A DNA stretch of 64,000 bases from an uncultured Pelagibacteraceae bacterium (GTDB taxonomy: Bacteria > Pseudomonadota > Alphaproteobacteria > Pelagibacterales > Pelagibacteraceae): NCBI GenBank assembly GCA_902530885.1, contig CACABZ010000001.1, positions 41,847 to 105,846 on the forward strand, read 5' to 3'. This document shows positions 37,637 through 42,314 of this stretch, one piece after another. The notes under the pieces were generated by a model. The model saw nothing but the letters and a program-made list of their open reading frames with translations, had not been told where the DNA came from and did not search any database. Position numbers and translations under genes: made by a program. Positions within the stretch are counted from its first letter, which is position 1, and the number at the start of each line of letters is the position of its first letter.

Positions 37637-39058
37637 TTAAATATTTGAGAAAGATAAAATAACTAAAAGTAAATATGTTATGGATCCGTAAAGTCTAGAT
37701 CTTTTATTGATCTTTACTGCTCTGCTATAATTTTTATTATTTATTCTACTAAAATAGATGGTTAAGAATGTTGGTATACAACAAAAGAGATAAGACAACA
37801 AAATATATCTGTCCATGCTTGTAAGGTAAGATAACTTCGGTAAATCATCATTAAAGACAAAATTATAAGCAATTAATGCTAATAAGGCTACAATTGAAGT
37901 TGTCAATCTAGACTCAACTTGATTTGGAGGTATCCATAAAACTGACCAAGCAATAGATAAAATCAGAAAAACAGGGATTAAAATTTTAAATATAAAATAG
38001 TTAGTATTTCTTTTTATAAAAATATTAATTTCTACAGTATCATTTTTAAAATTTGATATTTTATTTGAGTCAAATGGGTCTAGTGCTGTTTCAGATAAAA
38101 TTTTATTATTAATTGCATAATCTATGATCTTCCATTCTTTTAAAAGATTGTTTAATTTGTAATCTTCAATATTTTTGTAAACTGCTGGTTTTATATCAAA
38201 CAACCCAATATACGGTTTTGGTTGGTTATTATCCTCATTTAATTCTAAACCGATTGGGTGTTCTAAAACAATCTTTAAGTTTTGAACATCAAATGGAAAT
38301 TTTTTAAAATCAAAATTTGCTTTAATAACATGTAAACCCTCAAATGTTGAATTTGTGAAAGTTTTATCAAATTTTTCATAATAAACTTGATCAAAATAAC
38401 TAAAATTTTTATCTATATCGAATTTAATATGATCGATAAAAATAGTTTCATTAGTTACAGGTGAAAAAATTTTAGAGTTTTCTGTGAGTTCAGCGATATT
38501 ACATATCGTTAAATTTCCAATTTCTCTACCAGCCTCAATCCAGTCAGGTCTTTCGTGAGATACTCTAAATGAATAATCGATACCAAATTCACCAGACTTA
38601 GTGTCTATACTTTCAATGCTATTAAGTAAAAAATAATCGAGATCAAACTGATAGTAGTCGTATTTATTCGCATTTATTTTAAAAGACTGTTTATTTTGTT
38701 TAATATTTAAACTATTTTTTTTTAGTAAAGAGCTTATTTCATCATCATTTAAATTCGACAGGTCGTTATTATTGATCGATTGAATATGTTTTCCAGGTAC
38801 TAACCTTTCTTCAAAAAATGAGATTCTTAAAATTGGATATTTATTTTCATCTCTTTCGAGTTCTAATTTATTTGTTTCATAGTTAAATTTTTTAAGAAAA
38901 TAAATACCTGTATCGTATTTTGGTTGTTGACCATCACTTACTATACCATTTGCAGGGGTTGGTATGGACAACACTTTTTCTTCAAAATTCTTACACTCAT
39001 CTGCATAAACTTTAAAAAAAATAAAAAAGAAGTATAATACAAACAATTTTAATTTCAT
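37637..39058 (-). CDS. Pentameric ligand-gated ion channel (Cys-loop superfamily) with PDZ-like amino domain
   Basis: The 473-residue protein has a signal peptide (cleavage near VYA-DE, residue 19). A PDZ-like segment at about 74-115 (ISFFEERLVPGKHIQSINNN, then DLSNLNDDEISSLL) comes first. A beta-rich ligand-binding domain follows, with the prokaryotic Cys-loop equivalent FDFKKFPFDVQ (249-259). Four spans come after: M1 about 354-375 with its proline, M2 about 381-403 (ESRLTTSIVALLALIAYNFV), M3 about 412-437 and M4 about 455-472. M2 closely resembles GLIC-type channels. The ligand is unknown. The PDZ-like call is tentative; the channel call is strong. Confidence 0.88.
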   Translation of the reverse strand: MKLKLFVLYFFFIFFKVYADECKNFEEKVLSIPTPANGIVSDGQQPKYDTGIYFLKKFNYETNKLELERDENKYPILRISFFEERLVPGKHIQSINNNDLSNLNDDEISSLLKKNSLNIKQNKQSFKINANKYDYYQFDLDYFLLNSIESIDTKSGEFGIDYSFRVSHERPDWIEAGREIGNLTICNIAELTENSKIFSPVTNETIFIDHIKFDIDKNFSYFDQVYYEKFDKTFTNSTFEGLHVIKANFDFKKFPFDVQNLKIVLEHPIGLELNEDNNQPKPYIGLFDIKPAVYKNIEDYKLNNLLKEWKIIDYAINNKILSETALDPFDSNKISNFKNDTVEINIFIKRNTNYFIFKILIPVFLILSIAWSVLWIPPNQVESRLTTSIVALLALIAYNFVFNDDLPKLSYLTSMDRYILLSYLFCCIPTFLTIYFSRINNKNYSRAVKINKRSRLYGSITYLLLVILSFSNI

Positions 39059-39134: not shown

Positions 39135-39599
39135 ATGGCTAAAATAAGAAAACCTGCATCGATAGAGAGCGGTATTTCAGAAGTGCTTAGGATTTTAACT
39201 GATCAAGAAATATTGGATACAATAGGAAAAGGATCGTCTTATTTACGAAAGTGTAGCGACCCAGATCTGCCCCAACAAATTGATCATAATGATAGCCTAA
39301 AGTTAGATATAGCTTGTATTAAAAAGAATAAAGCACCTCCTCTCTTAAATTCACATGAATATACAATTTCTTTAAATGCTGATAATTTTGAATTTAAAGA
39401 TAATTATCAAGATTTGGATGACTTATTGGTAAAATTTTCAATACTACACGGAAAGTTAGTTGAAGTTGTAAAAAAAGCTCAAAATCCTGCAAGTGATAAA
39501 GGTTCAAAAATTAGCCCTATAGAGAAAAAAAACATTTTTGACTCAATTAAACTAGTTGAAGATAAAATTTTAAAATTAAAATTTTCAATTGATAAATAA
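39135..39599 (+). CDS. HTH-like regulatory protein of unknown function
   Basis: The 154-residue protein has an amino region (IESGISEVLRILTDQEILDT, then IGKGSSYLRKCSDPD and HNDSLKLDIAC). This resembles a group of alphaproteobacterial proteins with a phage-CII-like helix-turn-helix in which 'S-x-L-R-K/Q-x-S-D-P-D' is typical. The rest is helical with a possible coiled coil (residues 95-150). It diverges from the ion-channel gene across 76 bases and could regulate it. I cannot name a family securely. Confidence 0.6.
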   Translation: MAKIRKPASIESGISEVLRILTDQEILDTIGKGSSYLRKCSDPDLPQQIDHNDSLKLDIACIKKNKAPPLLNSHEYTISLNADNFEFKDNYQDLDDLLVKFSILHGKLVEVVKKAQNPASDKGSKISPIEKKNIFDSIKLVEDKILKLKFSIDK

Positions 39600-39601
39600 G
39601 A

Positions 39602-40420
39602 TTAAGAAAAAGTATAAACTACAAATGTTAAAAATGAATAGAATAACAAAACAATCATTGCTGCCTTAGAGAATTCTTTAGCAGATATGACATAGTACCT
39701 ATTATTAAACATAGTTTTATTTAATTGACTTTTTTTGAAATTTTTAAATATAATAATTGCTCTAAAAAAAAATACAAAAGCAGTTATATAGGCGATTTGT
39801 TCACTAACTACCTGGCTAGACATACTGTAGTTCCATAGACCATGTATGCCTACCGGAACCGCTAAGGCTAATATAAGATTGTAAAAATTATATTTTTTTT
39901 CAAATAAAGTTTGAGATATTAAAAAACCCATCATAACTCCACACAAAGCATGTAATGGAACGGCAGAAAACGCTCTTACGATCGCTACATAAAGTGAAGG
40001 GTCATAAACTATCTTTCCAGACTCATTAATATAGAACAGAACATAATCTATATTTTCCCAAGCAGCGTAACCTAAAGATGCAGCCACTCCATAAACTAAA
40101 CCATCCATGGGTTCATCGAAAGCGGTTTTTCGAGTGCAATAGAAAACTATTATCATCATTTTAAATATTTCCTCTAGAAATGCAGCTCTAATGAAGCTAT
40201 CAAAAAAAAAGTAAGTTTCACCAGTCAAATTTTTTTCTGAAAATCTATCGAAATCTCCTATAAATAGATCTAGAGCGATGGTTATAGCTGCCCCAAAAAT
40301 AAAAGTTTTTATTACTATTTCTTTAGGCTCGGGAAACACATCTTGTTTAAATACGTATAATAAAATGATTATTGCAGGTAGTATTGCAGCTAGAATATAA
40401 AAAAAATTAGATATTAACAT
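39602..40420 (-). CDS. PrsW-family intramembrane metalloprotease-like protein
   Basis: The 272-residue protein has about eight membrane segments and PrsW/CAAX-protease-superfamily landmarks: AFLEEIFKM with E83-E84, GLVYGVAASLGYAAWEN (E122), AVPLHALCGVMMG (H157) and VGIHGLWN (H193). PrsW proteases cut membrane anti-sigma factors or modify membrane proteins. It starts on the last base of the DUF2167 gene, so the pair is co-translated. The substrate is unknown. Confidence 0.82.
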   Translation of the reverse strand: MLISNFFYILAAILPAIIILLYVFKQDVFPEPKEIVIKTFIFGAAITIALDLFIGDFDRFSEKNLTGETYFFFDSFIRAAFLEEIFKMMIIVFYCTRKTAFDEPMDGLVYGVAASLGYAAWENIDYVLFYINESGKIVYDPSLYVAIVRAFSAVPLHALCGVMMGFLISQTLFEKKYNFYNLILALAVPVGIHGLWNYSMSSQVVSEQIAYITAFVFFFRAIIIFKNFKKSQLNKTMFNNRYYVISAKEFSKAAMIVLLFYSFLTFVVYTFS

Positions 40421-41370
40421 TAATCTTTATCTAATTTTTTTCTTTTATTTTTTGATCTTGAGCTAGAACTCTTATTGTTTCTTTCTCCTCGCATATAGCC
40501 AAAAGCTGCAAGAGGCGCTAACAATATCCACCAAAATTTTGCGAGTAACGGCAAAAATTTAGCAAAAAAACCTGTTTTAGCTATAACTTTTGCGCCTAGT
40601 GATCCAGCAACTAAACTACCTACGCCTACGGCTGCAATTTTATCTCCGGATTTATAATCTGTATGTTTATAACCATCAGAAAAAATTACACCATTTACAA
40701 AATCTTTAGAATATTCAGCTTCCTCTCTAAAATTAATATTTTTATTATTTAGTGTTATAATGTAAGTGGTTTCAATGTAACCTTTTTTACCAAGGATAAA
40801 ATTTTTAGACTCTAAAGTTTTCTTGCCATCATTCCAGAATACCTTGTATGAATAACTTACCGATCTGTTTTTTTGGTTCAATTCAGGATCGAATACCCAC
40901 TCAAAATCCGTAGCATAATTGAGATTATTTTCTTTATAATATGATTCATTTGATTTGGCAATTTGCTTAAGATCATTTAATAAGTCTTTTGATTTAACAT
41001 TTTTCCAATCATCTAATTTTACGTAACCATTTTCGACATAATAAGCATAAATTGAATAATTTTCTCCTTGCAGAAAAAAAATAGTATCGGAGGTTACACC
41101 TTCACCAAATTTCCACCAATAAAATTGATTAATTTCTTCATACCCTTTTAAATAATACTCATTATCATAAACTTGAATTTTTGCGTTAGCTTTTGGAATT
41201 TCAGTACTGTGATTTTTGCTGTTAGTATAATTATACCAGGTAAGTGTTAGTAGTTTTTCTCTTAGTTCATCTTCATTTGTAATCTTTTTTTTTTCTAAAG
41301 CATGAAGGGTGGTTAAAAAAAGAAAAAGATAAATAATTAAAAATGAAAAAATTTTATATAGTTTTTTCAT
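40420..41370 (-). CDS. DUF2167-family membrane protein
   Basis: The 316-residue protein has a signal peptide (residues 1-24) and a long extracytoplasmic domain (to about residue 235). The DUF2167-like carboxy end follows: KSGDKIAAVGVGSLVAGSLGAK, then FFAKFLPLLAKFWWILLAPLAAFGY as a membrane segment, then a basic Ser/Lys-rich tail. I know no biochemical function for the family. It lies between a tiny membrane protein gene (10-base gap) and the PrsW-like gene (1-base overlap), which suggests a three-protein membrane module. Confidence 0.7.
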   Translation of the reverse strand: MKKLYKIFSFLIIYLFLFLTTLHALEKKKITNEDELREKLLTLTWYNYTNSKNHSTEIPKANAKIQVYDNEYYLKGYEEINQFYWWKFGEGVTSDTIFFLQGENYSIYAYYVENGYVKLDDWKNVKSKDLLNDLKQIAKSNESYYKENNLNYATDFEWVFDPELNQKNRSVSYSYKVFWNDGKKTLESKNFILGKKGYIETTYIITLNNKNINFREEAEYSKDFVNGVIFSDGYKHTDYKSGDKIAAVGVGSLVAGSLGAKVIAKTGFFAKFLPLLAKFWWILLAPLAAFGYMRGERNNKSSSSRSKNKRKKLDKD

Positions 41371-41624: not shown

Positions 41625-42314
41625 CTATCTGAGGTTGTTATTTGAGTCACACTTTAAGCCCTCTTGCTCAAGAATTGTTTTTATCTTGTTATGTTTTAGC
41701 TCTCGATTGAAACCAGTAAGAACTACGTCATTCATAATCATACAAAACACAATACTATTTTTACTTGCTATATTTTTAAAGTCATCAATTGTATTAACAG
41801 GTGTAAATGTTCCAGCGTACCATGCAATTCTATCTCTCACAGAAAAATCAAATCCCTGGCCTCTTGAAATATAACCATTGATGCTTATGAAACCATCGTT
41901 AGTAACAAACTTGATTGATTGATTGCCACCCCACTCTTCATAAATATGACTAAAAGTATTTAATAAATATCTTGGAGTGAACCACGTTTTTTCATTTCCA
42001 CTAACACCAGTTCCTTTTGGCTGTATCGCAACTGTTAAATCTATATTTTCATTTCCCTCAAAAACTTTTTTAAACCATTTATAGCCACCGTATTGTATGA
42101 TTTCAGCATTATTATTATTATCAGAATATCTGTACATAAACATGACCGCGTCAAAATCTTCCTCAATTAAAATAGAGTAACTTACATCGGTATAAGTCTT
42201 ATTATTGTTGTTAGACTGGTTTGAGCTATCTGTACCTTTTTTCTTAGTTCTTTCAGCTGATAGCTGACTTATTGTTAAAAGAAAAAATATGATTAATAAT
42301 ATTATTTTTTTCAT
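41625..42314 (-). CDS. Secreted protein of unknown function
   Basis: I do not recognise this 229-residue protein. It has a signal peptide (MKKIILLIIFFLLTISQLSA, cleavage after residue 20) and a polar Asn/Ser/Lys linker. The compact domain that follows is rich in aromatic residues and glycine (FMYRYSDNNNNAEIIQYGGY, FVTNDGFISINGYISRGQGF). There is no membrane span after the signal and only two late cysteines. It is probably periplasmic. It shares direction with the DUF2167/PrsW genes, but a 76-base gap makes operon membership uncertain. Confidence 0.65.
   Translation of the reverse strand: MKKIILLIIFFLLTISQLSAERTKKKGTDSSNQSNNNNKTYTDVSYSILIEEDFDAVMFMYRYSDNNNNAEIIQYGGYKWFKKVFEGNENIDLTVAIQPKGTGVSGNEKTWFTPRYLLNTFSHIYEEWGGNQSIKFVTNDGFISINGYISRGQGFDFSVRDRIAWYAGTFTPVNTIDDFKNIASKNSIVFCMIMNDVVLTGFNRELKHNKIKTILEQEGLKCDSNNNLR

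Follow-up and report, generated by a model that had tools for sequence, protein, structure and literature searches.

What might a relative of the neurotransmitter receptors sense in a marine bacterium, and what would be the role of an additional domain placed ahead of the part that binds its ligand? The question is raised by one gene, encoded on the minus strand at 37637..39058, in a stretch of 64,000 nucleotides (hereafter ‘the window’; positions 41,847 to 105,846 of contig CACABZ010000001.1, assembly GCA_902530885.1) from an uncultured member of the Pelagibacteraceae (SAR11). An earlier note on this DNA had read its product as a pentameric ligand-gated ion channel (pLGIC) with a PDZ-like front domain, and its host as a streamlined marine alphaproteobacterium; it placed gene and host correctly, to the exact coordinate, and omitted only the strand. 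The architecture, a pLGIC joined to a domain with PDZ homology, can be stated with high confidence; that the PDZ domain senses peptides and affects gating is the preferred, and much more tentative, account of its function.

The identity of the channel is supported both by profile searches and by the predicted fold. The open reading frame begins with an ATG and contains zero internal stops, and its product is matched by the Pfam model Neur_chan_memb (E=5e-8, 33.9 bits against a curated cut-off of 28.1) and by the NCBIfam model LGIC_1 (1.9e-21, under the strict cut-off of that model); the Pfam model of the ligand-binding domain (LBD) gave no match on the window protein. Among sequences of the PDB, the best match is to ELIC (6e-15), followed by DeCLIC (3e-14), sTeLIC (2e-12) and GLIC (about 2e-9). 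The earlier note had likened the M1-M4 region and the Cys-loop equivalent to ‘GLIC-type’ channels; by its sequence the window channel is nearer to ELIC. A full-length AlphaFold2 model, built with 73 family sequences, reached a mean predicted local distance difference test score (pLDDT) of 87.5 and a predicted template modelling score (pTM) of 0.82, and consists of a ligand-binding sandwich followed by four membrane helices in the expected order; a Foldseek search with that model returned GABA-A receptors, DeCLIC and sTeLIC at E=4e-18 to 4e-16. At the inner end of the second membrane helix (M2) lies a GLIC-like acidic residue, the glutamate E382, which 90% or more of the family members share; it was placed near position -2' by alignment with ELIC and by the GLIC numbering, and because of that position the pore is probably of the cation-selective type.

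Ahead of the sandwich, and separate from it, the model contains a domain of residues ~44-133, with pLDDT values of 92-98 over the two predictions, 92-97 within the full model and 94.3 for the domain folded alone. The earlier claim had been made to depend on exactly such an independent domain in a predicted structure, and it survives, although the true span is wider than the stretch (residues 74-115) to which the PDZ-like resemblance had been assigned. A minimal channel lacking any front domain is ruled out by the same predicted fold. The strands at 45-49, 52-54, 56-59, 64-67 and 75-80, the short strands within 91-99, the helix at 105-111 and the strands at 116-121 and 124-129 follow, in the AlphaFold model, the order of elements of a PDZ domain (b1, carboxylate loop, b2, b3, b4, b5, alphaB, b6). 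The loop that would correspond to the carboxylate-binding loop reads N-D-[LF]-G-[FI] across the family (DLGF, DFGF or DxGI), and its glycine, Gly51 in the window protein, is kept in at least 90% of the rows of the family alignment. When the isolated domain was compared with the PDB by Foldseek, the leading entries were CtpB, CtpA, DegP, DegS and other PDZ-bearing proteins, with probabilities of up to 1.00 and a template modelling (TM) score of 0.62 to CtpB; three of the listed entries (two chains of 9hmf, plus 2hga) are not PDZ by title.

A series of profile comparisons leads to the same assignment. Pfam searches of the 73 relatives at E-values of up to 0.1 yielded matches to PF00595 in 13, to PDZ_6 in eight and to PDZ_2 in six (the best at 2e-6), and one relative (L008; loci used for comparison carry such numbers) clears the Pfam PDZ cut-off, at 26.7 against 23.2 bits. 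Compared with the PDB, a family profile of the front domain gave a best match of 8e-10, all 60 matches listed being PDZ proteins or PDZ-bearing proteases, and a profile of the better-preserved clade (clade II) reached 4e-13, again with PDZ matches throughout those listed. The profile of the clade to which the window protein belongs (the ‘window clade’) gave a best value of only E=0.11, which is sub-threshold, and all eight of its matches up to E=10 were to PDZ. Aligned by hhalign, that same profile met the clade II front domain at 5.5e-15, and six established PDZ domains, taken from DegP, CtpA and RseP, at 1.7e-6 with a score of 37.9, against maxima of 15.6 for 60 column-shuffled controls and 11.8 for eight windows taken from the LBD and transmembrane domain (TMD). 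PDZ-less sister channels gave no PDZ signal; with the shuffles and the LBD and TMD decoys, that result led to the rejection of a chance resemblance. Finally, when 385 genomes of the class were searched with the full-length profile, six extra places emerged, reached through profile positions 36-180 only, a range that covers the PDZ; the five of these that were scanned proved to be DegP, CtpA and three RseP proteins, with strong PDZ matches. Judged from these alignments, the front domain is homologous to PDZ, and not merely PDZ-like, though diverged in the window protein.

The architecture is not confined to one cell. PDZ-bearing pLGICs form one clade through SAR11, and weaker front domains, positive against shuffled controls, were found in a SAR86 channel (L098), in an alphaproteobacterial single cell (L105) and in another alphaproteobacterial family of small genomes (L113 and L114). 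On a tree of the channel core, from which the front domain was excluded, the presence or absence of the PDZ corresponds to one change, on a branch with 70% support by the Shimodaira-Hasegawa-like approximate likelihood ratio test (SH-aLRT) in a quick, unrooted analysis in which the window protein was represented by L031; no loss of the PDZ was seen within the PDZ clade.

The PDZ channel is also genetically linked to genes for PrsW-family intramembrane proteases. PrsW lies directly upstream of the PDZ-pLGIC, in the same direction, in 20 loci with varied flanks, SAR86 among them (where its Pfam match is 9e-33), and the paired genes usually overlap by 4-26 nucleotides. Among 53 genomes searched, PrsW was found in 17 of 29 that bear the channel and in 3 of 24 that do not (Fisher p=7e-4, a value that is optimistic because close relatives are counted repeatedly). 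In all 17 genomes with both, the coordinates place the two genes within ~7 kb of each other, in genomes of ~1 Mb. Neither the conservation of the architecture as a clade nor its link to PrsW genes had been part of the earlier note.

How such a protein might work can be sketched from what is known of its two parts. The pLGICs are pentamers that are gated from outside, and bacterial PDZ domains, such as those of DegS, DegP and CtpA, bind protein C-termini; from these two facts we infer that a ring of peptide-binding PDZ domains could shift gating. Assembled in the inner membrane, five subunits would make up a channel permeable to cations, and their five PDZ domains would sit as a crown on its periplasmic face. 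The groove of each would bind a C-terminal peptide in the periplasm, which could be the tail of a partner protein or else a protein end that is free or was generated by a protease; binding would shift the gating of a channel that would still possess its own site for a small ligand. The PrsW gene and, in some loci, a gene for an exported trypsin-like protease suggest that the channel cooperates with periplasmic or membrane proteolysis. The logic would resemble that of DegS, whose PDZ domain senses the C-termini of outer-membrane proteins, without the whole proteins being homologous. The least certain step is the sensing of peptides by the PDZ and its effect on gating, to which we assign a probability of roughly 0.45; it is doubtful that the PDZ-pLGIC and PrsW, partly with exported trypsin-like proteases, make up an undescribed marine system of periplasmic sensing. 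The channel’s own periplasmic C-terminus (FSNI, which resembles a class-I PDZ ligand) is not claimed as the ligand, the C-termini of relatives varying widely.

Several observations weigh against this account. Pfam finds no PDZ match on the window protein alone, and the domain is regarded as diverged in the window clade because of that silence; of the profile search proposed in the earlier note, the membrane model came out above its cut-off, the LBD and PDZ models were silent on the window protein, and the PDZ was reached through relatives only. There is no GD ahead of strand 4, and in the carboxylate-binding loop Gly51 and Ile52 are kept, but Thr50 occupies the second position, where a hydrophobic residue is expected (X-phi-G-phi). 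The Foldseek E-values for the isolated domain are weak (0.03-0.2). Among the three main domains, the PDZ also changes fastest, the identity between the window protein and L031 being 51% in the PDZ, 78% in the LBD and 89% in the TMD; this rate is compatible either with changing partners or with weak constraint, and nonsynonymous change is well under synonymous change in all domains, with synonymous sites near saturation. Lastly, in the window itself PrsW is not directly upstream of the channel, but one gene away, with a divergent gene between them.

The same divergence is what recommends a different account, in which the PDZ is a structural cap, the remnant of a once functional domain, and gating is left, in the ordinary way, to an amine, to protons or to calcium, as a small ligand acting at the subunit interfaces of the LBD. 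The same genomes contain sister channels that lack a PDZ and work without it and, in 11 loci, these sisters (~400 residues) lie directly behind a gene for a flavin amine oxidase (PF01593, E=7e-44 in L092), an adjacency that provides a lead to amine ligands for the PDZ-less channels, in the manner of ELIC, which is gated by amines; one PDZ-less channel, in L081, lacks the oxidase gene. A mere cap is harder to reconcile with the retention of Gly51 and of the pattern of loop and strands family-wide, with a domain that is confidently folded in the model, and with a tree that contains no loss inside the PDZ clade. We regard this account as rather unlikely, yet as a serious rival.

Alternatively, the PDZ might serve for assembly, or as a tether to PrsW, to a sister subunit or to some envelope structure, without any direct sensing. 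PDZ domains elsewhere serve as scaffolds, and the overlapping PrsW-channel pairs, together with channel genes in tandem, are suggestive of physical partners; PrsW was, however, not found in 12 of the 29 channel-bearing genomes (which are incomplete), and this function appears improbable, although it too is a serious rival. That the front domain is an unrelated small beta domain, PDZ-like by chance, is very improbable and strongly disfavoured: the lack of a Pfam PDZ match on the window protein alone and Foldseek E-values that fall short of 0.001 are set against the agreement on PDZ of profile searches, profile-profile tests with shuffled controls, an unbiased search of genomes and all but a few of the listed fold matches, as well as a relative that clears the Pfam cut-off.

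Features of the channel gene and its surroundings; positions are those of the window.
Feature	Position	Strand	Basis or remark
PDZ-bearing pLGIC subunit, whole gene	37637..39058	minus	473 residues
Signal peptide, residues ~1-20	38999..39058	minus	by sequence; putative cleavage site VYA|DEC
Cys22, N-terminal segment	38993..38995	minus	co-occurrence with Cys186; predicted disulphide
PDZ-type domain, residues 44-133	38660..38929	minus	AlphaFold, profile comparison, Foldseek
Asp49-Thr50-Gly51-Ile52, equivalent of the PDZ carboxylate-binding loop (X-phi-G-phi)	38903..38914	minus	putative counterpart of the GLGF loop, from strand order
LBD, residues 134-350	38009..38659	minus	AlphaFold, Foldseek
Cys186, in the LBD	38501..38503	minus	predicted partner of Cys22
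FPFD, residues 254-257, core of the Cys-loop (Pro-loop)	38288..38299	minus	invariant in the 73-row alignment
Transmembrane helices M1-M4, residues 351-471	37646..38008	minus	Pfam, AlphaFold
M2 pore helix, VESRLTTSIVALLALIAYNFVF	37844..37918	minus	E382 at about -2', T at 2', L at 9', F at 16' (probable numbering)
154-residue protein	39135..39599	plus	no Pfam match; conserved YLRKCSDP..QID-like motif
PrsW-family intramembrane protease	39602..40420	minus	Pfam PF13367, E=1.7e-35, 122.8 bits against a cut-off of 23.5
PDZ-less channels linked to amine oxidase genes			L075, L077, L080, L082, L086, L092, L093, L102, L107, L108, L109

Two cysteines bear on the way in which the front domain is held. Among 73 sequences, 62 possess both Cys22 and Cys186, seven possess neither, four possess the one in the LBD alone and none the N-terminal one alone; both are also retained by the aligned sister channels that lack the PDZ. 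The PDZ is inserted after the N-terminal cysteine segment and before the first strand of the LBD; a predicted disulphide would tie that segment to the LBD, and in the sequence the two cysteines flank the PDZ.

The closest contigs to the window come from SAR11 single-cell genomes: the channel of L033 (single cell AG-904-B07) is listed as 100% identical to the window protein and proves 99.8% identical by blastp, one residue apart, and that of L031 is 75% identical. The gene appears to be patchy rather than core, because a protein search of 297 genomes of the order yielded homologues in 29; the window’s own genome (64% complete) contains a single copy. A phage or mobile origin was rejected, there being zero matches in 50,697 phage records and none in viral contigs. 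Other arrangements also occur. A distant second subfamily of pLGICs in the SAR11 order (L023 to L029; 350-430 residues) carries no PDZ signal; a further pLGIC of that order (L012:250-2328, 692 residues) has a far longer N-terminal region, with a PDZ-like motif and extra sequence; and an alphaproteobacterial pLGIC (L121:1243-3483, 746 residues) has, by sequence only, an apparent periplasmic-binding-protein front domain, an architecture of a type already in Tasneem et al.

In the window clade, the channel gene is divergent from the gene for the 154-residue protein, which is its divergent neighbour in 35 loci and is present in 61 of 80 pLGIC loci; this protein has no PHROG match, in addition to its lack of a Pfam match, and may be a regulator. 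In many clade-I loci, genes for exported caspase-like and trypsin-like proteases lie just past it, and in L069 and L079 a trypsin-like gene immediately follows the channel. Exported trypsin-like proteases or caspase-domain proteins near clade-I PDZ channels are encoded, for instance, at L053:4046-5332, L069:6623-7951 and L050:2563-4038, and the trypsin-like ones carry C-terminal Asp-rich repeats that are calcium-binding in appearance. A gene for a DUF2167 membrane protein (window 40420..41370, minus strand, E=1.9e-30) lies directly upstream of PrsW. Two pLGIC genes on one strand are directly adjacent in L073, L080, L085, L093 and L095, and a few genes apart in L075, L077, L082, L086, L092 and L109; bacterial heteropentamers are therefore conceivable.

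If the doubtful wider reading, in which the PDZ-pLGIC and PrsW make up such a sensing system, is correct, then protein C-termini (for example of misfolded outer-membrane proteins, or of protease products) would gate a channel of the neurotransmitter-receptor family, and membrane potential or ion flux would report on the state of the envelope. Because the ligand class of PDZ domains is known in general (protein C-termini) and can be screened, what these bacterial relatives of neurotransmitter receptors sense becomes testable. The gene order supplies two leads, PrsW beside the PDZ channel and amine oxidase beside the PDZ-less one, and the SAR11 carriers rank among the most abundant cells of the sea. 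In B. subtilis, PrsW cleaves an anti-sigma factor; the gene in the window is a clear member of the family (PF13367), known here by that membership, and the B. subtilis role is not implied. A search of open-licence papers, in which bioRxiv preprints were not covered, found none on a PDZ-bearing pLGIC or on a link between pLGICs and PrsW; a Pelagibacter pLGIC has been noted earlier, in a text from which PDZ is absent (PMC4795631).

Set beside known systems, the SAR11 channel shares with ELIC and GLIC the ligand-binding sandwich and M1-M4, the FPFD loop and an acidic residue near -2'/-1' of M2, and differs from both in possessing an N-terminal domain. DeCLIC, which ranks high in the fold search, also carries a periplasmic domain ahead of its LBD, and its is the only pLGIC front domain with a structural study so far; that domain, however, consists of two jelly-roll lobes (NTD1 and NTD2) with calcium sites (PMC12664993), whereas the window protein has no such pair of lobes and carries a single PDZ of ~90 residues. 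The fusion of a sensor domain ahead of a channel is likewise found in the prokaryotic pLGICs described by Tasneem et al., whose front domains are PBP-I, Cache and MCP-N, with 0 occurrences of PDZ in that text (PMC549065). By sequence as well as by fold, the closest PDZ domains are those of DegS, DegP, CtpA and RseP; in those proteins the PDZ regulates a protease, whereas the SAR11 one is joined to an ion channel without a protease domain.
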